Positions 22,838-64,000 of a stretch of DNA of 64,000 nucleotides are shown here, one piece after another; the stretch's first letter is position 1; each line of letters opens with the position of its first letter. Location: positions 419,123 through 483,122 of the forward strand of contig NZ_JSWG01000015.1 in assembly GCF_000797465.1 (NCBI RefSeq), given 5' to 3'. The notes under the pieces were generated by a model. It had not been told where the DNA came from and did no database searches. It saw nothing but the letters and a program-made list of their open reading frames with translations. Both the position numbers and the translations under genes were made by a program. Source of the stretch: Psychroserpens jangbogonensis (GTDB taxonomy: Bacteria; Bacteroidota; Bacteroidia; Flavobacteriales; Flavobacteriaceae).

Positions 22838-22931
22838 TTTTGGGCATTCCCTTTTCCTAGCTCAAAAGGTCGTGCTTTCCGTTATATCTTTTGCTTTACA
22901 AAAGGATGGCACATCAATCACTAATGCAAAA
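22838..22931 (+). ncRNA. three-way-junction structured element (flavobacterial intergenic repeat candidate)
   Basis: Two nt after the adh stop. The outer stem pairs 22838-22848 (TTTTGGGCATT, with a GG bulge) with 22923-22931 (AATGCAAAA). Hairpin 1 pairs CCTTTT (22850-22855) with AAAAGG (22864-22869). Hairpin 2 pairs CTTTTG (22888-22893) with CAAAAG (22899-22904). Between them is the unpaired block GTCGTGCTTTCCGTTATAT. From memory, sequences of the form GGGCGTTCCC...GGTCGGGCTTTCCG...TATATCTTTT...AATCCCTAACGC recur between genes in many Flavobacteriaceae; this looks like one copy. It could be a repeat, an RNA element or both. Confidence 0.5.
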
Positions 22932-22935
22932 CAAA

Positions 22936-50663: not shown

Positions 50664-52175
50664 ATGAATACTGTGCATAAAATATCTTCTGAAACTTTAG
50701 ATCTTTCCACGATAAATGACATTATTTTTCAGCAGAAGAAAATAGAACTATCTACAGAGGCAATTAGTAAAATCTCAAAATGTAGAGAATATCTTAATTC
50801 AAAGATGCAAGAACAAGGTGATCCAATTTATGGTATAAATACTGGCTTCGGATCCTTATGTAATGTGAAGATTTCAAAAGATAAACTAACACAGTTACAA
50901 GAAAACCTTGTGATGTCTCATGCATGTGGTATAGGAGATCAGGTTCCTAAAGGAATTGTTAAACTAATGTTGTTTTTAAAGATACAATCTCTTAGTTATG
51001 GTCATAGTGGAGTGCAAGTGGAAACTGTAGAGCGTTTAATTTATTTTTATAACAACGATATTTTACCTTTAGTTTATACACAGGGCTCTCTTGGAGCTTC
51101 TGGAGATTTAGCACCATTAGCACATTTAGCCTTACCATTAATAGGAAAAGGTGAGGTATATTATAATGGTGAAGTTTGTAATGCTGAATCTGTACTAAAA
51201 GAATTACAACTAAATCCTATCAAATTACAATCTAAAGAAGGATTGGCATTACTCAATGGAACTCAGTTTATGAGTGCATATGGTATTCATCTAATTCTGA
51301 AATCTTATAAACTGTCTTATATGGCAGATTTAATATCTAGCATTTCAATAGATGCTTTTGATGGAAGAATTGAACCATTTAATGAACTAGTGCATTTAGT
51401 TAGACCTCATAATGGGCAAATTAAAACTGCAGAACGTATAAGAGGGTTCCTTGAAGGAAGTGAATTAATCGACCAAGAAAAAACAGATGTTCAAGACCCT
51501 TATTCGTTTAGATGTATTCCTCAAGTTCATGGCGCAACAAAAGATACTTTAGCATTTGTTGAAAGGACATTTAAAACTGAAATTAATTCAGTTACTGATA
51601 ATCCAAATGTATTTATTGCGGAAGATAAAATAATCTCTGGAGGAAATTTTCACGGACAGCCCTTAGCTTTAGCTTTAGATTATTTAAAAATAGCAATGGC
51701 TGAATTAGGGAACATTTCTGAACGAAGAATTTATCAGTTAGTTTCAGGCCTTAGAGGCTTACCGACTTTTTTAGTAGACAATCCTGGTTTAAACTCAGGA
51801 TTTATGATACCACAATACACAGCAGCTAGTATTGTAAGCGCAAATAAGCAACTTGCAACTCCAGCAAGTATTGATAGTATTGTGTCTAGTAATGGTCAAG
51901 AAGATCATGTAAGCATGGGAGCAAATGCTGCTACACAAGCGTATACATTAATTCAGAATGTTGAGCGTATTTTGGCAATAGAATTACTCAATGCTTCTCA
52001 AGCACTAAATTTCAGAAAACCTAAGCTGTCTTCTCCGTTAATTAATTCTTTATTAAATAGTTATAGAAATCAAGTTCCATTTGTAAAAGAAGACCGTATT
52101 TTTCATGATATGATAAAATCTTCAATACTTTTCATCGAAGATTTTCGCATAGATAATGATTTGCTTTTCGATTAA
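50664..52175 (+). CDS. hutH: histidine ammonia-lyase
   Basis: 503 aa. The MIO prosthetic group forms from Ala145-Ser146-Gly147 in GSLGASGDLAPL. Other aromatic ammonia-lyase signatures are YGINTGFGSL, SHACGIGD (the His supports histidine as substrate), QVHGATKD, SVTDNPNVF and GNFHGQPLAL. It deaminates L-histidine to urocanate. No other hut gene is adjacent, which is common in this group. A -7-like GATTTTTG lies at 50637-50644. The last 27 codons have a decayed homologue at 61488-61568. Confidence 0.92.
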   Translation: MNTVHKISSETLDLSTINDIIFQQKKIELSTEAISKISKCREYLNSKMQEQGDPIYGINTGFGSLCNVKISKDKLTQLQENLVMSHACGIGDQVPKGIVKLMLFLKIQSLSYGHSGVQVETVERLIYFYNNDILPLVYTQGSLGASGDLAPLAHLALPLIGKGEVYYNGEVCNAESVLKELQLNPIKLQSKEGLALLNGTQFMSAYGIHLILKSYKLSYMADLISSISIDAFDGRIEPFNELVHLVRPHNGQIKTAERIRGFLEGSELIDQEKTDVQDPYSFRCIPQVHGATKDTLAFVERTFKTEINSVTDNPNVFIAEDKIISGGNFHGQPLALALDYLKIAMAELGNISERRIYQLVSGLRGLPTFLVDNPGLNSGFMIPQYTAASIVSANKQLATPASIDSIVSSNGQEDHVSMGANAATQAYTLIQNVERILAIELLNASQALNFRKPKLSSPLINSLLNSYRNQVPFVKEDRIFHDMIKSSILFIEDFRIDNDLLFD

Positions 52176-52226: not shown

Positions 52227-52258
52227 TTTGGCAATCAATATTTTATCTTCTATTTTTG
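52227..52258 (+). promoter_or_regulatory. canonical promoter of giant gene 1
   Basis: TTTG (52227-52230), 20 bp, TATTTTTG (52251-52258): an exact Bacteroidetes TTTG-N20-TAnnTTTG promoter. The second giant gene has the same elements with identical spacing at 61621-61652. The predicted transcript starts near 52265, giving a leader of about 300 nt. Confidence 0.65.
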
Positions 52259-52264
52259 AAAGTA

Positions 52265-52563
52265 AGTTAAGGTGAGTTCAATTCACTTTGGCCACACGAA
52301 AAATAATAACACACTTTTATTTTTTCGTGTTCCTACCCAAAATTGTTTGATAGCACAACAATTGATTATTAGCACATTTATTGATTTTTGAATACGTGAT
52401 GTATTCAATCCCAGAGTGATTTTATTTTACATGTTTATGTAAAATAAGATACCTCAATTTGGTCCCAAACCTATCACTTTAGCGATATCCGCTTTAGTTA
52501 TGTCGATTGCAGAGATGTAATCAAAATAAATGTTAAGATAATTTTAATTTAAAACCAAATGTT
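52265..52563 (+). promoter_or_regulatory. long structured 5' leader of giant gene 1
   Basis: Contains three inverted repeats shared with the second copy. Hairpin B: ACACGAAAAA / TTTTTCGTGT (52294-52330). Hairpin C: TTGAATAC-GTGAT-GTATTCAA (52388-52408). Hairpin D: TTATTTTACAT-GTTT-ATGTAAAATAA (52422-52447). A 67-nt core (52342-52408) has only one difference from its counterpart (61741-61807) and holds two TAGCACA direct repeats. In hairpins B and D the copies differ by paired compensatory substitutions, which supports selection on the folded form. An alternative promoter inside the core (TTG-N18-GATTTTTG) cannot be excluded. Confidence 0.6.
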
Positions 52564-55500
52564 ATGTTTATGAGCAATTTTACCCGAAGTGGTAGTCGCG
52601 CCAAAATCTGGCAGTCTATCACGAATTTATCGTGTTGTAGCATTGATCTTATTACTAAACAAACTAGAAGCATGAAGGCATTTGCCTTTATCATGCTTTT
52701 TGCGTTTAGTGTAGGAACAGTAGAAGCACAAGAAGAAAGAAGTACTTTCTTCGATCGTTGTCAAGAGGATGCACCTCCTGGACCAAGTGAAGCAGATGTT
52801 GCTAACTTGTATTTAAACCAATGTGGAGACACTCCAGCAACAGTTACTAAGACAGCTATTATGTCAGGTGACGATTGTGATTGGGAAGTAGAATACACTT
52901 ACTTTATTAAGTGTGGTGCTTTCGAAGAAGAAATCAAAGTTGGTTATGTTGGAGGAGACAGAACACCACCATCACTTAATGATGGCGCGCAAGTTCCAAC
53001 AGGAGAGTTGGGAATGAACTTATGTTTTAGTCAAGCACCAGCAGGACCAAAAGTAACAAGCATCGCAGCTCTGTATTCAGATAACTGTGGAGAAGTTCTT
53101 GTTACTAAGTCAGGATCACCTCAAGGAGATGATTGTTCATGGACAGCTTTTTACAAGTATTCAATAATGGATTCTTGTGGTAACATGATTGCAGACTTAG
53201 ACGTTAATTATACTGGAGGCGATACAGAAGCTCCTCAATTATTAAAAGACGCAGAAGTTCCAGTAGGCTCAAATACATTAAACTTATGTTTTGATAACAA
53301 ACCATTAGGACCAACAGAATTAGAAATAGCTGCATTATTTTCAGATAATTGCGGAACTGTTTTAGTTACAAAATCATTAGGAACAGAAAAAGGTAATGAT
53401 GATTGTAAATGGTTATCAGCATTTGAATATACAATTCAAGATAGCTGTGGAAACTTTGCAGACCCAATCTATGTGGAATACATGGGTGGTGATACAGAAG
53501 ACCCAGTTTTAAGTGGAGTTCCAATAGATACAGAAGTAACTTGTATTGATTTAATTCCAGCACCAGCAAATGTAACAGCTACAGATAACTGTACAGATAA
53601 CATTCAAGCAGTGCTTACAGAGAATTATGATAATTTAGGATTAGCATGTGAAGGTGGAGAATTAGTAAGAACATGGACAGCTACCGATCTTTGTGGAAAC
53701 TCAATTAGCGCTAGTCAAACAATTGTTGTTTTACCAGCACCTATGGCATCTTTTGAGCCAGTGTCACCAGAAACAATTTCATGTGAAGAAGCTTTTAGCT
53801 TCCAAGCAGATGATTTAATATATAATAATGGTGTATCAAAAAGTGCTTGTGCAATTGTAGGATCAGTTCCAGGATTAGTAACATCAAACTTTACATTATG
53901 TGGAGGAACTATTACTGTAAATTGGACATATACAGATGATTGTTTACGTACAATAAATGCAGAGAAAGTTTATACAGTAACACCAGCACCAGCAGCAACA
54001 TTAGATGTAGTTGAGAACTTTACATTAAGTTGTGAAGCAGCAGCAGCATATGTAGCACCTTCATTAAACTATAGTAATGGATTACAAGGTGATTGTAGCT
54101 TAGATGGTTCAATTCCACCAGTTCAAAAGGATCAATTTGATGCTTGTGGTGGTAAAATTATTGTAGAATATATCGGAGAAGATGCTTGTGGTAATCCATT
54201 AAGCACAATTTTAGATATTACAGTGTCACCAGCACCAGCAGCAGTATTTGACGCTATCGAAGTAGAGTCAGAATTATCTTGTGCAGATGCAGATACATAT
54301 ACAGCAACTGCCTTAAACTATTCAAACGGATTAGAAGGGATTTGTAATATTAGTGGTTCAATAGAGCCAGTACAAACAAATGAGTTTGATTCATGTGGAG
54401 GAAAAATCACAATTACTTGGACAGGTCAAGACGAATGTGAAAACCCTTTAACAGCAACAGTAGATATTAATGTGTTACCAGCTCCAGAAGCAGATGTAAC
54501 AACACCAGAATTTCCATCTAATGTTTCATGTGCAGATGCAGCCGGATTTACAGCAGCAGATGCTACTTATACAAATGGCTTAGAAGGAACTTGTAATATT
54601 TCAGGATCATTAGAAGCAACGGTTGTTAAATTATATGATTCATGTGGTGGTAAAATTACTATTACATATAATGGAGAAGATGCTTGTGGACGTCCACTAA
54701 GTGCAGGTCCATTTGATGTTGATGTTGATCCAGCACCAGAAGCTACTGTTTCTGCACCTGAGTTTCCATCAGATATTATGTGTTCAGATGCAGCAGGATT
54801 TAGTGCAGCAAATGCTACATATAGTAATGGATTAACAGGAGACTGTGAAATTTCAGGATCTTTAGAAGCAAATATTGTAAGAGCATACGATTTATGTGGT
54901 GGTAAAATTACTATTACATATAATGGAGAAGATGCTTGTGGTCGCTTATTAAGCGCAGGACCATTTGATGTAAACGTTAACCCAGCACCAGAAGCTAGTT
55001 TTGATACAGCTGCGCATGAAGAGATTTCTTGTGAGCAAGCTGATGGTTATTCTGCACCTTCATTAAACTATTCTAATGGTTTAGAAGGAGAATGTGGAAT
55101 TAATGGAACTGTAGATGGTGTATTAAGCGGAGAATTTACTTCTTGTGGAGGTTTATTATACGTTGATTGGACTTACACAGATGAATGTGGACGTTTAATT
55201 ACAGCTAGAAAACAATTAAAAGTATCACCAGCACCAGCTCCAACACTTGACGAAGTAGAAAACTTCACATTAAGTTGTTCTGATGCAGATGGATACCAAG
55301 CACTACCATTATATTATTCAAATGGATTAGAAGGAACTTGTAATATTTCAGGTGATTTATTACCAGTACAAACAAACAACTTTAATGAGTGTGGTGGAAC
55401 AATCACAGTTACATGGGACGGTACAGATATTTGTGGAACTCCACTAAGTGCTACTCAAACTATAACTGTATCACCAGCACCAGAAGCTATGTTTATCAAT

Positions 55501-58500
55501 CCTTTACCAAGTATTGAAGTTGCATGTGATTTAGCTGACGATTATATCGTTACTAACTTAGCATATAGCAATGGACTTGAAGGAACTTGTGGTATCAATG
55601 GAGATGTTCCAGGGGCATTAAGTGGAAGCTATGATGCATGTGGAGGAACTTTATATGTAGACTGGAAATTTGTAGATAACTGTGGTCGCGAGATTGATTA
55701 CAGAAAAACAATTACAGTTTTACCAGCACCAGAAGCTGAAGTAACAGCTCCAGAGTTTTCTGATAAGATAGCTTGTGCAGATGCAGCAGGATTTGCAGCA
55801 GATGACGCTACTTATACAAACGGATTAACTGGTTTATGTGAAATCTCAGGAAGTATCGAAGCAACTGTAGTAAAAAATTACACAGCTTGTGGAGGAACAA
55901 TTACTATTACTTATGATGGAGTTGACGCATGTCAAAACCCATTAAGTGCAGGACCATTCGTAATTGACGTTGATCCAGCACCAGAAGCAACAGTAACAGC
56001 TCCTGAATTCCCAGCTAACATTATGTGTGCAGATGCAGCAGGTTTTGCAGCAGGAAATGCTACATATAGTAACGGCTTAGAAGGAACTGCTTGTGATATC
56101 TCAGGAGATATCGAAGCTACAGTAGTTAAAAATTACACAGCTTGTGGAGGAACAATCACTATTACTTACACTGGTAAGGATTTATGTGAGCGTGACTTAG
56201 CAGCAGGACCATACGTAATAAACGTTGATCCAGCACCAGAAGCTACAGTAACAACACCAGAATTCCCAGCTAACATCATGTGTGCAGATGCAGCAGGTTT
56301 TGCAGCAGGAAATGCTACATATAGCAATGGCTTAGAAGGAACAGCGTGTGATATTTCAGGAGAAATAGAAGCAACTGTTGTTAAAAACTACACAGCATGT
56401 GGAGGAACAATTACAATCTCTTACGCAGGTAAGGATATTTGTGATCGTGATTTAGCAGCTGGACCGTTTGTGATCGAAGTTGATCCAGCACCAGAAGCTA
56501 CAGTAACAACACCAGAATTTTCAGATAAGATTGCTTGTTCAGATGCAGCAGGTTTTGCAGCAGATGACGCTACTTATAGCAATGGCTTAGAAGAAACTGC
56601 TTGTGAGATTTCAGGAAGTATTGAAGCAACTGTTGTTAAGAACTACACAGCATGTGGAGGAACAATCACAATCTCTTACGCAGGTAAGGATATTTGTGAT
56701 CGTGATTTAGCAGCTGGACCGTTTGTGATCGAAGTAGATCCAGCACCAGAAGCTGAAGTAACAACACCAGAATTCCCAACTAACATTATGTGTGCAGATG
56801 CAGCAGGTTTTGCAGCAGGAAATGCTACATATAGTAATGGTTTAGAACAAACAGCATGTGATATTTCAGGAGAAATTGAAGCAACTGTTGTTAAAAACTA
56901 CACGGCTTGTGGAGGAACAATCACTATTACTTACGCAGGTAAGGATATTTGTGAACGTGACTTAGCAGCAGGGCCATTCGTAATAAACGTTGATCCAGCT
57001 CCAGAAGCAGAAGTAACAACACCAGAATTTTCAGATAAGATTGCTTGTGCAGATGCAGCAGGTTTTGCAGCAGGAAATGCTACTTATAGCAATGGCTTAG
57101 AAGGAACAGCGTGTGAGATTTCAGGAAGTATTGAAGCAACTGTTGTTAAGAACTACACAGCATGTGGAGGAACAATCACTATTACTTACGCAGGTAAGGA
57201 TATTTGTGATCGTGATTTAGCAGCTGGACCGTTTGTGATCGAAGTAGATCCAGCACCAGAAGCTGAAGTAACAACACCAGAATTCCCAACTAATATTATG
57301 TGTGCAGATGCAGCAGGTTTTGCAGCAGGAAATGCAACATATAGTAATGGATTAGAAGGAACTGCGTGTGATATCTCAGGAGAAATTGAAGCAACAGTAG
57401 TTAAAAATTACACAGCTTGTGGAGGAACAATCACTATTACTTACGTAGGTAAGGATATTTGTGAGCGTGACTTAGCAGCAGGACCATTTGTAATTACAGT
57501 TGATCCAGCTCCAGAAGCTACAGTAACAGCTCCAGAATTTCCAGCTAATATTATGTGTGCAGATGCAGCAGGTTTTGCAGCAGGAAATGCAACATATAGT
57601 AATGGATTAGAAGGAACTGCTTGTGATATCTCAGGAGATATCGAAGCAACAGTAGTTAAAAATTACACAGCTTGTGGAGGAACAATCACTATTACTTACG
57701 CAGGTAAGGATATTTGTGAGCGTGACTTAGCAGCAGGACCATTCGTAATAAACGTTGATCCAGCTCCAGAAGCAGATGTAACTACACCAGAATTTTCAGA
57801 TAAGATTGCTTGTGCAGATGCAGCAGGTTTTGCAGCAGGAAATGCTACTTATAGCAATGGCTTAGAAGGAACAGCGTGTGAGATTTCAGGAAGTATTGAA
57901 GCAACTGTTGTTAAGAACTACACAGCATGTGGAGGAACAATCACTATTACTTACGCAGGTAAGGATATTTGTGATCGTGATTTAGCAGCTGGACCGTTTG
58001 TGATCGAAGTATCACCAGCACCAGAAGCTACAGTATATGCACCTCAATTCCCATTAGATATAGAATGTGTTGATGCAGCAGGTTTTGCAGCAGGAAATGC
58101 TACTTATAGCAATGGATTAGAAGAGACTGCATGTGATATTTCAGGTAGTATTGAAGCTACAGTTGTAAAAGCGTATGACGCTTGTGGAGGAACAATCACT
58201 ATTACTTACGCAGGTAAGGATATTTGTGAGCGTGACTTAGCGGCAGGTCCATTTGTGATCGAAGTTAAGCCTGCACCAGCACCTATATTCTATCCAATTG
58301 AGCCAGCTAACCTTGCTTGTGAGGATTTAGCAACTTATGTTCCTGAATTTTTAGGATACAGTAATGGTATTGAAGGTCCTTGTGGCATCAATGGAAGTGT
58401 TCAAGGTGTTGCAGATCCATTTACTGGAAGCTGTGGTACGTTTGATGTACATTTCTCTTATGTGTCTTGTGGAGTAGAAATTACTTCTAAGCAAACCATA

Positions 58501-61191
58501 ACAGTAATTGATGAAACAGCTCCAATGTTAGAAGGAGAGTTACCTCAAGGTTTATCAGATGTTGACGCATGTTTAGCTAATGTTCCAGCTGCTCCAACTG
58601 AGGAGTATATTGAATCATTATTCTCTGATAACTGTGGAAATGTAAATGCAACTTTAACAATCACATCTCCAGAGGAGAACACAGATTGTTTATGGGCTGT
58701 ATTATACAGATATACGATTGAAGATGACTGTGGAAACTTTGCAGCACCAGTTAAAATCTACCATAATGGTGGAGATACGTCAGCACCTGAATTAACAGGT
58801 GACTTACCAACAGGTGTTACTGGTTTACAATGTTTAAGTGAAAACCCAGGAGCTCCAGAATTAGCAGCAATTATTGCAGCGTATTCAGATAACTGTGGAG
58901 ATGTAATAGTTACACCATTTGAGCCTAATATTTCAGGTACTGATTGTGGATGGACTGCTACTTATGAGTATGAAATTAAAGATACTTGTGGTAACAAATT
59001 ACCAAACATCGAAATCGTAAACAGTGGAGCAGATACAATGGCTCCAGAATTAGACGGAGAAATTCCATTAGGAGAGAATACCGTTAATGCATGTAAAGAT
59101 TCTGATTTAGGTGAACCAACAGAAGAAGAAATAGCTGAGCTATTCTCTGATAACTGTGCAGACATCACAGCTGATAATGTAACTAAAGTTGAAAAATTAG
59201 CTATAGGTTCAGATTGTGAGTGGATTAGAGTATTTGAATACATAGTTAGAGATGACTGTGGAAATGCTTATCCAACATTCAAAGTGAACTACCAAGGTGG
59301 TGATACTGAAGGCCCAATGGCGACAGGTGAATGTACTGCTGAAGTGATGACTCTTAATACTAGTGACTGGGATGGCTTAGCTTGTCCTGAAGATGCAAGT
59401 ATTTCTCTTGTTTATCAACAAGAAATCACAGTTGATTCAGAATGGACTGTTGGAGGAATTCCAGCATCAGAAATTGGATCTATATACGAATGCTATACAG
59501 ATAACTGTACTGCAGTTGAAGATTTAACGTTCAGAGTTTATGAATTAAGTGAAGTTAAAGGACCTTGTTCTACAACACTTACGGTTACTTTTGAAGTTGA
59601 AGACAGCTGTTTGAACAAATCAGCAGATCTATTAGTATGTACATTTATTATAAATGATACGACTGCACCAGTAGTAACTTGCCCAGAAGGTGAAGACTTT
59701 GGTACTGTTACTGAAACACCAACTGAATTTGGTGATAAAGCAACTTGGATAGATAACTGTCAAGGTTCAGGTGATACTGCAACATTTACTGATGTGCTTA
59801 CTGAATCAGTAAGTGGAAGTGGAGGAAGTGGTAATGGTGTATTCACAATTGAGTGCTATGATTCTAATGGAGGTCTTTTTGATCATATAGATTATGTAGT
59901 TACAGGAACTGATGGTAATGGATTGCCGACATATTCTGGAACATTACGTGATAATGGAGCAGGACCATACACATTATACTATAATGATACTACAACTCGT
60001 TGGGAAGGTTATTTACTTAATAGTACTACATTGATTTGGTATGCAGATACACTTTCATGTGATATCAATGATTGGACTAGTACAGGTGGAGCAACTACTT
60101 GTGTTGCAATAGGAGTTGATTGTAGTGACTTTAATTCAAATGCTGTAGACTACACTTTAGTGCGTACGTTTACTGCTGATGATGGTTGTGGTAATGTTGG
60201 TTCATGTGAAGTAACATATACTTGGTCAATTGGTCAAGCATGTGATGACGTTGCTCCAGTATTAGACTGCCCTGAAGGTACATTCTTCGGAGAAGTTTTT
60301 GTAGCACCAACAGCATTTGTAACTTCTGCACCATATAGTGACGAAGGTAATGCAGGTGGAACAACTACTGATTATTCAGATGATTTACAAGATGAACAAT
60401 TCTTCGGAGAATCAACTAATATTAGTATTGGTTGTATCACTGGAGGCCAAGTGTTCGCAGTTGTTGATTTTGTAAGAACAGGATTTGATGCTGCCGGATA
60501 TGCAGTGTATGCTGTTGGATCTAGTACAGAATTGCCTAATCATGGTTATACATTAGAATATGATGCAGCGAATGCAAGATGGTCTACTAAAGAGTACCCA
60601 AATGATACTAGTGCTTCTGGTTCTGGAATTGAAGTATTCTATTCTCCATCTGTAGGTAATGCACCAGATTGTGATCCTTCTACTTGGACAATTGATGCTA
60701 GTGTATGTGATTCAATTTGGGTTGATTGTGGATTTGTTGGACTAGATTATACAGAGTACACATTAACAAGAACATTTACAGCTACAGATGACTGTGATAA
60801 TGTAGATACTTGTGATGTAGTTTACTCATGGATAATCAATAACCAACCAATTACAAGAAGTGCTGACTATAATGTTGTTCCTAATAGTGATATTAAGGCA
60901 TTAGCATTAGGTGCTTCTGAAGAAAGCAAGGTTGATTTCAAAGCGTTCCCAGTACCATTTGATAATGAGGTAACACTTACATATGAGTTTGATTACAGAA
61001 CAGACGTAACTATTGAGTTCTTTGATACTAAAGGTTTATTAATCTTATCAGAGACTAACACTAGATACGTTGCAGGTTCAACAGGTAGAACTACATTAGA
61101 TCTATCAAGAACTTCTAGTCAAGTATTCTATGTGAAGTTAACGACTAGTCAAGGTACGATTACTAAGAAGATTGTATCTTCTGGTAAGTAG
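52564..61191 (+). CDS. giant cysteine-rich repeat surface protein with T9SS type A sorting domain (copy 1)
   Basis: 2,875 aa. A long N-terminal leader (36 residues before a normal signal sequence MKAFAFIMLFAFSVGTVEAQ) may mean the true start is Met37 at 52672. After cleavage come three ~85-aa modules (A type, each with SDNCG, DDC.W and DSCGN motifs). One HYR-like segment follows, then 19 B modules (53731-58506) each opening with a PAP motif and carrying four spaced cysteines. Next are three more A modules (58507-59310) and two related ~190-aa domains (59660-60240 and 60260-60840). A T9SS sorting domain ends the protein (FPVPFDNEVTLTYEF ... VFYVKLTTSQG). It is predicted to be exported and attached to the cell surface, as a filamentous adhesin-like or matrix protein (inference). 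I cannot assign a receptor or function. Confidence 0.85.
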   Translation: MFMSNFTRSGSRAKIWQSITNLSCCSIDLITKQTRSMKAFAFIMLFAFSVGTVEAQEERSTFFDRCQEDAPPGPSEADVANLYLNQCGDTPATVTKTAIMSGDDCDWEVEYTYFIKCGAFEEEIKVGYVGGDRTPPSLNDGAQVPTGELGMNLCFSQAPAGPKVTSIAALYSDNCGEVLVTKSGSPQGDDCSWTAFYKYSIMDSCGNMIADLDVNYTGGDTEAPQLLKDAEVPVGSNTLNLCFDNKPLGPTELEIAALFSDNCGTVLVTKSLGTEKGNDDCKWLSAFEYTIQDSCGNFADPIYVEYMGGDTEDPVLSGVPIDTEVTCIDLIPAPANVTATDNCTDNIQAVLTENYDNLGLACEGGELVRTWTATDLCGNSISASQTIVVLPAPMASFEPVSPETISCEEAFSFQADDLIYNNGVSKSACAIVGSVPGLVTSNFTLCGGTITVNWTYTDDCLRTINAEKVYTVTPAPAATLDVVENFTLSCEAAAAYVAPSLNYSNGLQGDCSLDGSIPPVQKDQFDACGGKIIVEYIGEDACGNPLSTILDITVSPAPAAVFDAIEVESELSCADADTYTATALNYSNGLEGICNISGSIEPVQTNEFDSCGGKITITWTGQDECENPLTATVDINVLPAPEADVTTPEFPSNVSCADAAGFTAADATYTNGLEGTCNISGSLEATVVKLYDSCGGKITITYNGEDACGRPLSAGPFDVDVDPAPEATVSAPEFPSDIMCSDAAGFSAANATYSNGLTGDCEISGSLEANIVRAYDLCGGKITITYNGEDACGRLLSAGPFDVNVNPAPEASFDTAAHEEISCEQADGYSAPSLNYSNGLEGECGINGTVDGVLSGEFTSCGGLLYVDWTYTDECGRLITARKQLKVSPAPAPTLDEVENFTLSCSDADGYQALPLYYSNGLEGTCNISGDLLPVQTNNFNECGGTITVTWDGTDICGTPLSATQTITVSPAPEAMFINPLPSIEVACDLADDYIVTNLAYSNGLEGTCGINGDVPGALSGSYDACGGTLYVDWKFVDNCGREIDYRKTITVLPAPEAEVTAPEFSDKIACADAAGFAADDATYTNGLTGLCEISGSIEATVVKNYTACGGTITITYDGVDACQNPLSAGPFVIDVDPAPEATVTAPEFPANIMCADAAGFAAGNATYSNGLEGTACDISGDIEATVVKNYTACGGTITITYTGKDLCERDLAAGPYVINVDPAPEATVTTPEFPANIMCADAAGFAAGNATYSNGLEGTACDISGEIEATVVKNYTACGGTITISYAGKDICDRDLAAGPFVIEVDPAPEATVTTPEFSDKIACSDAAGFAADDATYSNGLEETACEISGSIEATVVKNYTACGGTITISYAGKDICDRDLAAGPFVIEVDPAPEAEVTTPEFPTNIMCADAAGFAAGNATYSNGLEQTACDISGEIEATVVKNYTACGGTITITYAGKDICERDLAAGPFVINVDPAPEAEVTTPEFSDKIACADAAGFAAGNATYSNGLEGTACEISGSIEATVVKNYTACGGTITITYAGKDICDRDLAAGPFVIEVDPAPEAEVTTPEFPTNIMCADAAGFAAGNATYSNGLEGTACDISGEIEATVVKNYTACGGTITITYVGKDICERDLAAGPFVITVDPAPEATVTAPEFPANIMCADAAGFAAGNATYSNGLEGTACDISGDIEATVVKNYTACGGTITITYAGKDICERDLAAGPFVINVDPAPEADVTTPEFSDKIACADAAGFAAGNATYSNGLEGTACEISGSIEATVVKNYTACGGTITITYAGKDICDRDLAAGPFVIEVSPAPEATVYAPQFPLDIECVDAAGFAAGNATYSNGLEETACDISGSIEATVVKAYDACGGTITITYAGKDICERDLAAGPFVIEVKPAPAPIFYPIEPANLACEDLATYVPEFLGYSNGIEGPCGINGSVQGVADPFTGSCGTFDVHFSYVSCGVEITSKQTITVIDETAPMLEGELPQGLSDVDACLANVPAAPTEEYIESLFSDNCGNVNATLTITSPEENTDCLWAVLYRYTIEDDCGNFAAPVKIYHNGGDTSAPELTGDLPTGVTGLQCLSENPGAPELAAIIAAYSDNCGDVIVTPFEPNISGTDCGWTATYEYEIKDTCGNKLPNIEIVNSGADTMAPELDGEIPLGENTVNACKDSDLGEPTEEEIAELFSDNCADITADNVTKVEKLAIGSDCEWIRVFEYIVRDDCGNAYPTFKVNYQGGDTEGPMATGECTAEVMTLNTSDWDGLACPEDASISLVYQQEITVDSEWTVGGIPASEIGSIYECYTDNCTAVEDLTFRVYELSEVKGPCSTTLTVTFEVEDSCLNKSADLLVCTFIINDTTAPVVTCPEGEDFGTVTETPTEFGDKATWIDNCQGSGDTATFTDVLTESVSGSGGSGNGVFTIECYDSNGGLFDHIDYVVTGTDGNGLPTYSGTLRDNGAGPYTLYYNDTTTRWEGYLLNSTTLIWYADTLSCDINDWTSTGGATTCVAIGVDCSDFNSNAVDYTLVRTFTADDGCGNVGSCEVTYTWSIGQACDDVAPVLDCPEGTFFGEVFVAPTAFVTSAPYSDEGNAGGTTTDYSDDLQDEQFFGESTNISIGCITGGQVFAVVDFVRTGFDAAGYAVYAVGSSTELPNHGYTLEYDAANARWSTKEYPNDTSASGSGIEVFYSPSVGNAPDCDPSTWTIDASVCDSIWVDCGFVGLDYTEYTLTRTFTATDDCDNVDTCDVVYSWIINNQPITRSADYNVVPNSDIKALALGASEESKVDFKAFPVPFDNEVTLTYEFDYRTDVTIEFFDTKGLLILSETNTRYVAGSTGRTTLDLSRTSSQVFYVKLTTSQGTITKKIVSSGK
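53731..58506 (+). repeat. array of 19 coding tandem modules (about 240-255 nt each)
   Basis: Each module encodes 80-85 aa starting xPAP and has four Cys at fixed places: near residue 19, then in the ...C.I.G region, in the xxCGG motif and in the DxC motif. Modules 1-8 and 19 are divergent; modules 9-18 are nearly uniform. The first four are also readable in the partial second gene. Confidence 0.9.
55720..58266 (+). repeat. homogenised core of ten tandem modules
   Basis: Module 9 is 252 nt (55720-55971); modules 10-18 are exactly 255 nt each (boundaries at 55972, 56227, 56482, 56737, 56992, 57247, 57502, 57757, 58012). Modules 14 (56992-57246) and 17 (57757-58011) differ at only 2 of 255 positions. 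That indicates a 765-nt higher-order unit and recent unequal exchange. Confidence 0.92.
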
Positions 61192-61487: not shown

Positions 61488-61568
61488 AGCATTTTTTATA
61501 AAAACAGAAAAACCTTGGTGTATTTTATCGAAGGTTTTTGCATTAACACCGAATCGCTTTTCGACCAA
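61488..61568 (+). pseudogene. decayed remnant of the hutH 3' end
   Basis: Aligns without gaps to the last 27 codons of hutH (52095-52175). Over about 83 nt I count roughly two-thirds identical bases. The read-out SIFYKNRK...FIEGFCINTESLFDQ parallels RIFHDMIK...FIEDFRIDNDLLFD, with the stop changed to CAA. It is directly followed by sequence homologous to the hutH-giant intergenic region at a near-constant offset (9,393 then 9,394 bp). It therefore marks the left end of a tandem duplication. Confidence 0.65.
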
Positions 61569-61620
61569 ATGTTTAAAAGAAAAGTTCAACTGTAAAATAC
61601 GGTAAAAAACGTAATTTTTC

Positions 61621-61652
61621 TTTGGAAGCAAGTGTTCTATAATATACTTTTG
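61621..61652 (+). promoter_or_regulatory. canonical promoter of giant gene 2
   Basis: TTTG (61621-61624), 20 bp, TACTTTTG (61645-61652). Same elements and spacing as the promoter at 52227-52258, although the surrounding bases have diverged. Confidence 0.65.
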
Positions 61653-61658
61653 GATTCA

Positions 61659-61963
61659 AGTTAAGGTAAATTTTGTTTGTTTTAACTACATGAAAAAGTA
61701 TAATAAAAACGATTATTTTTTTCATTCCCTCACCACAAAAATTGTTTGATAGCACAGCAATTGATTATTAGCACATTTATTGATTTTTGAATACGTGATG
61801 TATTCAAGATTTAGAGTCATTTTATCTTACGGTATTTCGTGAGCTAATTTATCTCATTTAACACAAACCTAATGACTAAAGTATTAGTTGCTTTAGTTAT
61901 GTCGATTACAGAGATGTAATCAAATATAAATGTTAAGATAATTTAAATTTTAAACCAAATTCT
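61659..61963 (+). promoter_or_regulatory. long structured 5' leader of giant gene 2
   Basis: Counterpart of 52265-52563. Hairpin B' pairs CATGAAAAA-type sequence at 61690-61697 with TTTTTCAT (61718-61725). Hairpin C' (61787-61807) is identical to copy 1. Hairpin D' pairs 61822-61831 with 61838-61847, with one mismatch and one G-U pair. Compensatory changes relative to copy 1: one C-G to T-A in B; T-A to C-G and A-T to G-C in D. Confidence 0.6.
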
Positions 61964-64000
61964 ATGTTTATGAGCAATTTTACTCGAATTGGTAGTCGCG
62001 CCAAAATGTGGCAGTCTATCACTAATCTATCGTGTTGTAGCATTGATTTTATTACTAAACAAACTAGAAGCATGAAGGCATTTGCCTTTATCATGCTTTT
62101 TGCGTTTAGTGTAGGAACAGTAGAAGCACAAGAAGAAAGAAGTACTTTCTTCGATCGTTGTCAAGAGGATGCACCTCCTGGACCAAGTGAAGCAGATGTT
62201 GCTAACTTGTATTTAAACCAATGTGGAGATATTCCAGCAGCAGTTACTAAGACGATTACTATGTCAGGTAATGATTGTGATTGGGAAGTAGAATACACTT
62301 ACTTTATTAAGTGTGGTGCTTTTGAAGAAGAAATCAAAATTGGTTATGTTGGAGGAGACAGAACACCACCATCACTTAATGATGGCGCACAAGTACCAAC
62401 AGGAGAGTTGGGAATGAACTTATGTTTTAGTCAAGCACCAGCAGGACCAAAAGTAACAAGCATCGCAGCTCTGTATTCAGATAACTGTGGAGAAGTTCTT
62501 GTTACTAAGTCAGGATCACCTCAAGGAGATGATTGTTCATGGACAGCATCTTACAAGTATTCAATAATGGATTCTTGTGGTAACATGATTGCAGACTTAG
62601 ACGTTAATTATAGTGGAGGCGATACAGAAGCTCCTCAATTATTAAAAGACGCAGAAATTCCAGTAGGCTCAAATACATTAAACTTATGTTTTGATAACAA
62701 ACCATTAGGACCAACAGAATTAGAAATAGCTGCATTATTTTCAGATAATTGCGGAACTGTTTTAGTTACAAAATCATTAGGAACAGAAAAAGGTAATGAT
62801 GATTGTAAATGGTTATCTTCATTTGAATATACAATTCAAGATAGCTGTGGAAACTTTGCAGACCCAATCTATGTGGAATACATGGGTGGTGATACAGAAG
62901 ACCCAGTTTTAAGTGGAGTTCCAATAGATACAGAAGTAACTTGTATTGATTTAATTCCAACACCAGCAAATGTAACAGCTACAGATAACTGTACAGATAA
63001 CATTCAAGCAGTGCTTACAGAGAATTATGATAATTTAGGATTAGCATGTGAAGGTGGAGAATTAGTAAGAACATGGACAGCTACCGATCTTTGTGGAAAC
63101 TCAATTAGCGCTAGTCAAACAATTGTTGTTTTACCAGCACCTATGGCAGAGTTTGAGCCAGTGTCACCAGAAACAATTTCATGTGAAGAAGCTTTTAGTT
63201 TCCAAGCAGATGATTTAAATTATAGTAATGGTGTATCAAAAAGTGCTTGTGCAATTGTAGGATCAGTTCCAGGTACAGTAACAACAAACTTTACATTATG
63301 TGGAGGAACTATTACTGTAAATTGGACGTATGCAGATGATTGTTTACGTACAATAAATGCAGAGAAAGTTTATACAGTAACACCAGCACCAGCAGCAACA
63401 TTAGATGTAGTTGAGAACTTTACATTAAGTTGTGAAGCAGCAGCAGCATATGTAGCACCTTCATTAAACTATAGTAATGGATTAGAAGGTGATTGTAGCT
63501 TAGATGGTTCAGTTCAACCACTTCAAAAGAATCAATTTGATGCTTGTGGAGGAAAAATTCTTGTAATCTATACAGGAGAAGATGCTTGTGGTAATCCATT
63601 AAGCACAATTTTAGATATTACAGTATCACCAGCACCAGCAGCAGTGTTTGACGCTATCGAAGTAGAGTCAGAATTATCTTGTGCAGATGCAGGTACATAT
63701 ACAGCAACTGCCTTAAACTATTCAAACGGATTAGAAGGAATTTGTAATATTAGTGGTTCAATAGAGCCAGTACAAACAAATGAGTTTGATTCATGTGGAG
63801 GAAAAATCACAATTACTTGGACAGGTCAAGATGACTGTGAAAACCCTTTAACAGCAACAGTAGATATTAATGTGTTACCAGCTCCAGAAGCAGATGTAAC
63901 AACACCAGAATTTCCATCTAATGTTTCATGTGCAGATGCAGCCGGATTTACAGCAGCAGATGCTACTTATACAAATGGCTTAGAAGGTACAGACTGTGAG
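61964..64000 (+). CDS. giant cysteine-rich repeat surface protein (copy 2), truncated by window end
   Basis: Starts at ATG 61964, exactly 9,400 bp after the start of copy 1, and stays open for 679 codons to the window edge. By manual comparison about 58 bases differ from copy 1 over the first ~2,020 nt, with no indel. Differences cluster between identical runs of 130-185 nt, a gene-conversion-like mosaic. It encodes the same long leader, signal sequence, three A modules, HYR-like segment and B modules 1-4. In the last codons it departs from copy 1 (GTDCE versus GTCNI). T9SS export is inferred by homology because the C-terminus is outside the window. Confidence 0.85.
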   Translation, partial: MFMSNFTRIGSRAKMWQSITNLSCCSIDFITKQTRSMKAFAFIMLFAFSVGTVEAQEERSTFFDRCQEDAPPGPSEADVANLYLNQCGDIPAAVTKTITMSGNDCDWEVEYTYFIKCGAFEEEIKIGYVGGDRTPPSLNDGAQVPTGELGMNLCFSQAPAGPKVTSIAALYSDNCGEVLVTKSGSPQGDDCSWTASYKYSIMDSCGNMIADLDVNYSGGDTEAPQLLKDAEIPVGSNTLNLCFDNKPLGPTELEIAALFSDNCGTVLVTKSLGTEKGNDDCKWLSSFEYTIQDSCGNFADPIYVEYMGGDTEDPVLSGVPIDTEVTCIDLIPTPANVTATDNCTDNIQAVLTENYDNLGLACEGGELVRTWTATDLCGNSISASQTIVVLPAPMAEFEPVSPETISCEEAFSFQADDLNYSNGVSKSACAIVGSVPGTVTTNFTLCGGTITVNWTYADDCLRTINAEKVYTVTPAPAATLDVVENFTLSCEAAAAYVAPSLNYSNGLEGDCSLDGSVQPLQKNQFDACGGKILVIYTGEDACGNPLSTILDITVSPAPAAVFDAIEVESELSCADAGTYTATALNYSNGLEGICNISGSIEPVQTNEFDSCGGKITITWTGQDDCENPLTATVDINVLPAPEADVTTPEFPSNVSCADAAGFTAADATYTNGLEGTDCE

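Follow-up and report, generated by a model that had tools for sequence, protein, structure and literature searches.

The closest described systems are the leader of the MS2 maturation gene and hok, in which, according to the account given in PMC6733600, transient folds time translation: a short-lived local hairpin is replaced by long-distance pairing, and the translation start is thereby hidden. The leader described here may resemble these systems in that order of events, its timing being the part that we infer, and differs from them in its setting: in MS2 and hok the sites controlled are Shine-Dalgarno sequences, of a phage gene or a toxin gene, whereas our leader is chromosomal and genus-wide, precedes surface-protein genes that have no Shine-Dalgarno sequence, and would have its capturing strand within codons 4-6. 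RNA thermometers and translational riboswitches likewise hide the start region by upstream pairing; in contrast to these, no melting between 10 and 37 °C is predicted for our leader and no known aptamer was matched in it by Rfam. To our knowledge, flavobacteria lack Shine-Dalgarno sequences and little is known about translation switching of single genes in this group.

In Flavobacterium johnsoniae, structure near the start lowers translation while A-rich unstructured starts favour it, and leaders have a mean length of 33 nt, as stated in PMC6847099; for F. psychrophilum, PMC9723704 gives a mean of 65 nt and a median of 24. The latter source describes 64 structured 5' elements in this member of the Flavobacteriaceae, some shared across genera and some without Rfam hits, the examples named there belonging to other genes (pheA, hisG, ftsY, acsA, alaS, rimP); a homologue of our leader may be among these 64 regions. 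In the open-licence PubMed Central literature we found no description of the leader.

Two leaders preceding two giant genes

The window, i.e. the whole stretch of DNA analysed, comprises 64,000 nucleotides of Psychroserpens jangbogonensis (contig NZ_JSWG01000015.1, positions 419,123 to 483,122; part of G000:C7), and its features are collected in Table 1. Rfam 15 returned no match at gathering score at either leader of the window and none up to E=2 in four loci, own and of relatives (L001, L005, L014, L016). The first-pass annotation of the sequence had noted no described leader family matching it. Flavo-1 RNA (RF01705), also a flavobacterial motif, has a copy elsewhere in the window (22864-22932, minus strand, barely over the gathering score) and no match at the leader.

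Table 1. Positions of the leader elements and genes in the window
Feature	Positions	Strand	Basis or remark
Promoter of gene 1, TTTG-N20-TATTTTTG	52227..52258	+	pattern match
Hairpin P1 (predicted)	52266..52292	+	copy-1 leader fold
Hairpin P2 (hairpin B of the first-pass annotation)	52294..52330	+	fold; region mean z -2.27 (25 leaders)
Conserved core, 5' strand of the long-range helix	52339..52382	+	alignment, consensus fold, duplex and swap tests
Hairpin P4	52388..52408	+	fold; region mean z -2.18
Hairpin P5 (hairpin D of the first-pass annotation)	52414..52455	+	fold; paired differences
GGTCCCAAACC, (T/C)CCC...CTA motif	52461..52471	+	motif match
Hairpin P7 (GATTGCA-GAGA-TGTAATC)	52505..52522	+	fold; region mean z -1.57
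3' strand of the long-range helix (initiation region, start codon, codons 2-6)	52525..52581	+	consensus and copy-1 folds
Giant gene 1	52564..61191	+	2875 aa; HYR_4C domain; start codon 52564-52566
Promoter of gene 2, TTTG-N20-TACTTTTG	61621..61652	+	pattern match
Copy 2 core and P4	61738..61807	+	70 nt, differing from copy 1 at one base
Copy 2 P7 (GATTACA-GAGA-TGTAATC)	61904..61921	+	sequence
Copy 2 start region	61925..61981	+	AAATTCTATG replaces AAATGTTATG
Giant gene 2	61964..64000	+	HYR_4C domain; runs off the contig end, 679 aa visible

The pattern TTTG-N17-23-TAHHTTTG matches the plus strand of the window only twice, once before each giant gene, which bears out the promoter proposed earlier about 300 nt upstream of both; element and spacing are as in PMC6847099. 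As the -7 element lies 4-5 nt from the start in F. johnsoniae according to the same source, the transcript of gene 1 is expected to begin near 52263-52264, giving a leader of about 300 nt. The complete promoter pattern is present in 42 of the 55 leaders that we collected from genomes of the Psychroserpens type and of other Flavobacteriaceae, with the end of the -7 element 276-332 nt before the ATG in 41 of these 42 and 200 nt before it in L086. An internal promoter, GATTTTTG at 52383-52390, had been offered as an alternative that would place the transcript start downstream of the hairpins; we rejected it, the element being unconserved among relatives in a 23-leader alignment and the upstream pattern being complete in so many leaders.

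The two copies of the leader differ in pairs that keep pairing, and all bases are as first reported, i.e. C-G at 52297/52327 versus T-A at 61691/61724 in hairpin B, and T-A at 52426/52443 versus C-G at 61826/61843 and A-T at 52431/52438 versus G-C at 61831/61838 in hairpin D. The nearly identical block, formerly given as 67 nt with one difference, does contain a single mismatch (A52358/G61757) and extends over 70 nt (52339-52408 versus 61738-61807). Hairpins B and D are predicted as described; the leader is not limited to three hairpins, more being predicted together with a previously unseen long-range helix that reaches the start codon. In the copy-1 fold this helix encloses P4, P5, a small GGT-CCCAA-ACC hairpin, P6 and P7.

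For the statistics, dropping sequences more than 90% alike from the 47 leaders that have the core left a non-redundant set of 25. Compared with dinucleotide shuffles, whole leaders of this set fold with a mean z of -4.48, upstream control stretches reaching -0.39, and the P4-P7 domain is likewise stable beyond its shuffles (mean z -3.56). Arm-swap tests of P2, P4 and P7 are circular, the arms having been picked by folding, and shuffle tests were used instead. Throughout the 23-leader alignment the hairpin sequences vary with pairing retained, while the core and the start region are nearly unchanging. At the P4 position a hairpin of at least 4 pairs is found in 46/47 leaders, and P7 varies in sequence yet stays paired in most relatives. 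The P2 loop carries AATAGC in 6/25 non-redundant leaders and is without it in the gene 1 copy.

Directly upstream of the gene 1 leader lies a histidine ammonia-lyase gene (50664-52175), and a similar hutH-like gene end is located upstream of many relatives' leaders (by alignment; a crude motif is found in 31/52). A decayed hutH 3' end, alignable with the genuine one, precedes the second leader at 61520-61575, so that the tandem copy seems to have brought along the hutH tail, the promoter, the leader and the gene start. Paired nearby leader-bearing genes, as in the window, also occur in G394, G056, G006 and G014.

Distribution among the Flavobacteriaceae

Leader and gene start together have a DNA match in 22/23 genomes of the genus, the match in G005 being a fragment at a contig end. 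A protein search of genome contigs with the N-terminus yielded 26 loci, including Arcticiflavibacter, Aquaticitalea, Subsaxibacter and Meridianimaribacter, and the N-terminus was matched in 24/397 genomes of the family (20/237 genera). The start block ATGTTATGTTWATGNRCAATTTTAC occurs in 29/397 family genomes and 22/237 sampled genera and the TAATAGC-form core pattern in 10/397 family genomes, the reversed-pattern control giving 0 in both searches. At the level of the order, the start block was detected in 1/148 genomes, the window's own, and in none of the 127 among these that belong to other families; an exact 63-base core search of genome contigs gave no match.

The genes had been called giant surface-protein genes, a size that not every carrier reaches. 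For 14 stretches with the start block fetched for length, eight reading frames end inside (704, beside an unread stretch, 1130, 1259, 1341, 1492, 1939, 2618 and 3470 aa) and six run off, so that the complete proteins range from 1130 to 3470 aa if the frame beside the unread stretch is set aside. The four complete proteins scanned, out of these eight, all pass the Por_Secre_tail cut-off. Searching residues 1-60 of gene 1 against 5.8 billion proteins retrieved 21 proteins of 2072-4380 aa, under a length filter favouring giants, all with precomputed HYR_4C and Por_Secre_tail domains; in gene 1 itself the type IX sorting tail scores under the cut-off in both Pfam and NCBIfam. In L057, a metagenome-assembled genome, the frame after the start block is closed by a stop after 47 codons.

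The core is present in 47/55 leaders, the remaining eight (L078, L079, L080, L085, L086, L087, L088, L113) forming a core-less branch. Here the start block reads ATGTTATGTT(A/T)ATGTAC, and its predicted partner is a strand immediately upstream, so that a local hairpin would conceal the same start block. These hairpins are of no unusual stability (z -0.7 to -2.2); in L087, an altered start block (GTTTA for GTTAA) is matched by an altered partner (TAAAC for TTAAC).

Predicted pairing of the core with the translation start

In all 47 leaders with a core, this strand is complementary to the region from -39 to +18 around the start codon, and RNAalifold, run on 17 and on 33 leaders, pairs the core block with the start-region block. 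Duplexes of core and start are more stable than those of dinucleotide-shuffled cores, with z from -1.8 to -5.9 in 33 leaders and from -1.4 to -7.2 in the 25 non-redundant ones, the weakest being L075, L064 and L070; the helix comprises 31-49 predicted pairs in the latter set. It is the predicted dominant fold in 31/33 leaders, full-leader ensembles at 37 °C having at least 26.9 expected core:start pairs. The exceptions are L002, which is the second copy of the window (11.5 pairs), and L004, one of the G006 copies (16.0 pairs), both with a start hardly paired to the core; in copy 2 AAATTCTATG stands where copy 1 has AAATGTTATG, so that the predicted helix is reduced to its lower half. Folds with the helix are favoured over folds without it by 1.4 to 18.7 kcal/mol in 24/25 leaders, L126 being left out. 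By visual inspection we also considered a short upstream frame that overlaps the start, and discarded it as it is missing in L002, L004 and L087.

The duplex between the copy-1 core and its native start has an energy of -21.1 kcal/mol, and of 36 other ORF starts of the window the strongest partner reaches -18.2. An equally good duplex with the core is, however, formed by 233 of 9747 arbitrary 78-nt window stretches, many of them overlapping, so that complementarity in a single genome is weak evidence, and the case rests on conservation and co-divergence.

We show the core and start strands to be conserved, complementary and co-diverging between relatives. In a swap test on 25 leaders, native partners have a mean of -24.28 kcal/mol and permuted partners of -22.32, with 0/20000 permutations as good, a figure that is not an exact probability, nor are the others of this kind, the sequences being related by descent. 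Reciprocal swaps favour the native combination in 233 of 300 cases and the swapped one in 60, with 7 ties. Permuting within two clades gave 6/20000 for the whole helix and 154/20000 for the lower helix, and within-clade reciprocal swaps were 101 for native and 48 against, with 7 ties. The lower helix alone reached 44/20000 across the 25 leaders; the upper helix, lying on the start codon, is nearly invariant and the test is uninformative there (10925/20000). An initial test on 16 leaders had been weak, with 522/20000 permutations attaining the native mean. Compensated changes are seen as core GCACT with start strand AGTGTT in L062 and L069, and as core CACAAATATTG with start strand CAGTATTTGTTG in L074.

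The covariation expected from a wider alignment thus appears at the level of the whole helix and not of single pairs: a home-made R-scape-like test had a best E of 0.35 with 18 leaders, and with 47 leaders no pair at E<0.05 (best E=1.7). An enrichment of predicted pairs among the top-scoring pairs of the 47 leaders was discarded because the structure was derived from that alignment. Pairing between a leader strand and the initiation region, conserved as in a cis-acting start-hiding translational leader, is found here by prediction and by co-divergence.

The coding side of the helix begins a conserved N-terminal peptide, MFMxNFT, which is followed by a normal signal-peptide-like stretch. The start block could therefore have been kept for this peptide, e.g. 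as an extended signal peptide, the pairing being a chance product of A+U-rich sequence such as the 233 equally good stretches of the window would illustrate. We regard this as very improbable: codons 2, 4, 5 and 6 show zero synonymous change in 40 distinct sequences (50 protein-search loci; L081, L083 and L084, set aside in advance, were excluded), residue 4 is variable (AGC, AAC or TAC, i.e. Ser, Asn or Tyr), conservation extends upstream of the start, and the swap tests favour native partners. Further downstream, codons 22-28 (52627-52650, TTATCGTGTTGTAGCATTGAT, peptide LSCCSID) show little synonymous change and contain a further TAGCA, and are possibly a second RNA signal.

Imperfect direct repeats in the core (ATTGTTTRATAGCA / ATTGATTATTAGCA) would suit a DNA operator of tandem TAGCA-type repeats, to which the start complementarity would be a by-product; the core, however, is expected some 75-120 nt into the transcript, and changes in it are mirrored in the start strand, leaving little credit for this reading. 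Similarly little can be given to an RNA thermometer whose helix melts on warming, as the A+U-rich composition over the start codon might suggest: the mean number of core:start pairs in 33 leaders is 32.6, 33.7 and 33.6 at 37, 20 and 10 °C, and we rejected this candidate as no melting is predicted in this range, on prediction only.

A proposed switch of translation and its rivals

With some confidence, going slightly beyond an even balance, we propose a conserved RNA leader whose core likely pairs with the region from -39 to +18, which would hide the start and hold back translation; the helix would block ribosomes, which in flavobacteria depend on a start region free of structure and not on a Shine-Dalgarno sequence. 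A need for this pairing would account for the first codons being frozen at the nucleotide level in otherwise differing proteins. The earlier claim of a functional cis-acting structured RNA is well supported by its presence in the genus, its stable folds and its co-diverging strands. Of the two roles then suggested, message stability or translation, the main feature, a helix between core and start codon, points to the latter.

The first part of the core can alternatively fold into a hairpin, P3 (AATTGTT ... AACAATT, about 52340-52362), sharing bases with the long helix so that the two overlap. P3 is weak (-0.7 to -4.6 kcal/mol in 25 leaders), forms in 16/25 leaders if the helix is forbidden, and carries AATAGCA in its 7-nt loop in 7/25. 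In folds of growing transcripts, computed for 3/25 leaders as equilibrium folds and not kinetics, P3 persists to +10, and 35-37 core:start pairs are present from +20. This suggests a succession in which P3 would sequester the beginning of the core as long as RNA polymerase remains upstream; once about 20 coding nucleotides have emerged, (G/A)(G/A)CAATTTT of codons 4-6 would capture the core, P3 would open and the start would close. The outcome would be brief access of ribosomes to every newly made transcript, or else an open state that might be maintained by a bound factor.

A factor-responsive switch, in which a small molecule or an RNA-binding protein acting on P4-P7, the CCC...CTA motif or the AATAGCA loops opens or closes the start helix, seems unlikely on balance, with several observations in its favour. 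Besides the stability of P4-P7 beyond shuffles and the P3 loop sequence, many other genera have the (T/C)CCC...CTA motif about 92-104 nt ahead of the start (20/33 leaders given), and AATAGCA is found in an upstream hairpin of 4/8 core-less leaders, once as AGTAGCA. Against it stand the lack of an Rfam match, the absence of the CCC motif from the Psychroserpens main group and the sequence of P4-P7, which changes freely, unlike a ligand pocket.

That the helix mainly protects the message from nucleases such as RNase III or exposes it to them, thereby setting the life of a very long mRNA, would fit the long imperfect helix and the very long coding regions; the reading is nonetheless quite improbable, as the 3' strand has the start codon at its centre and extends into codon 6 and the core-less branch locally hides the same start block, both pointing to initiation.

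Returning to the start-hiding leader, we tentatively extend it to a possible family-wide flavobacterial switch, for which our confidence is clearly lower: transcribing codons 4-6 would capture the core from P3 and close the start, granting one short loading window per message, and the RNA, not the protein, would write the MFMxNFT of many unrelated surface proteins.

As flavobacterial leaders are short, this conserved one of about 300 nt, with its predicted closure of the translation start in genes for large secreted surface proteins, offers a ready, testable case. It also carries the warning that an RNA signal can underlie the conservation of a protein's first residues.
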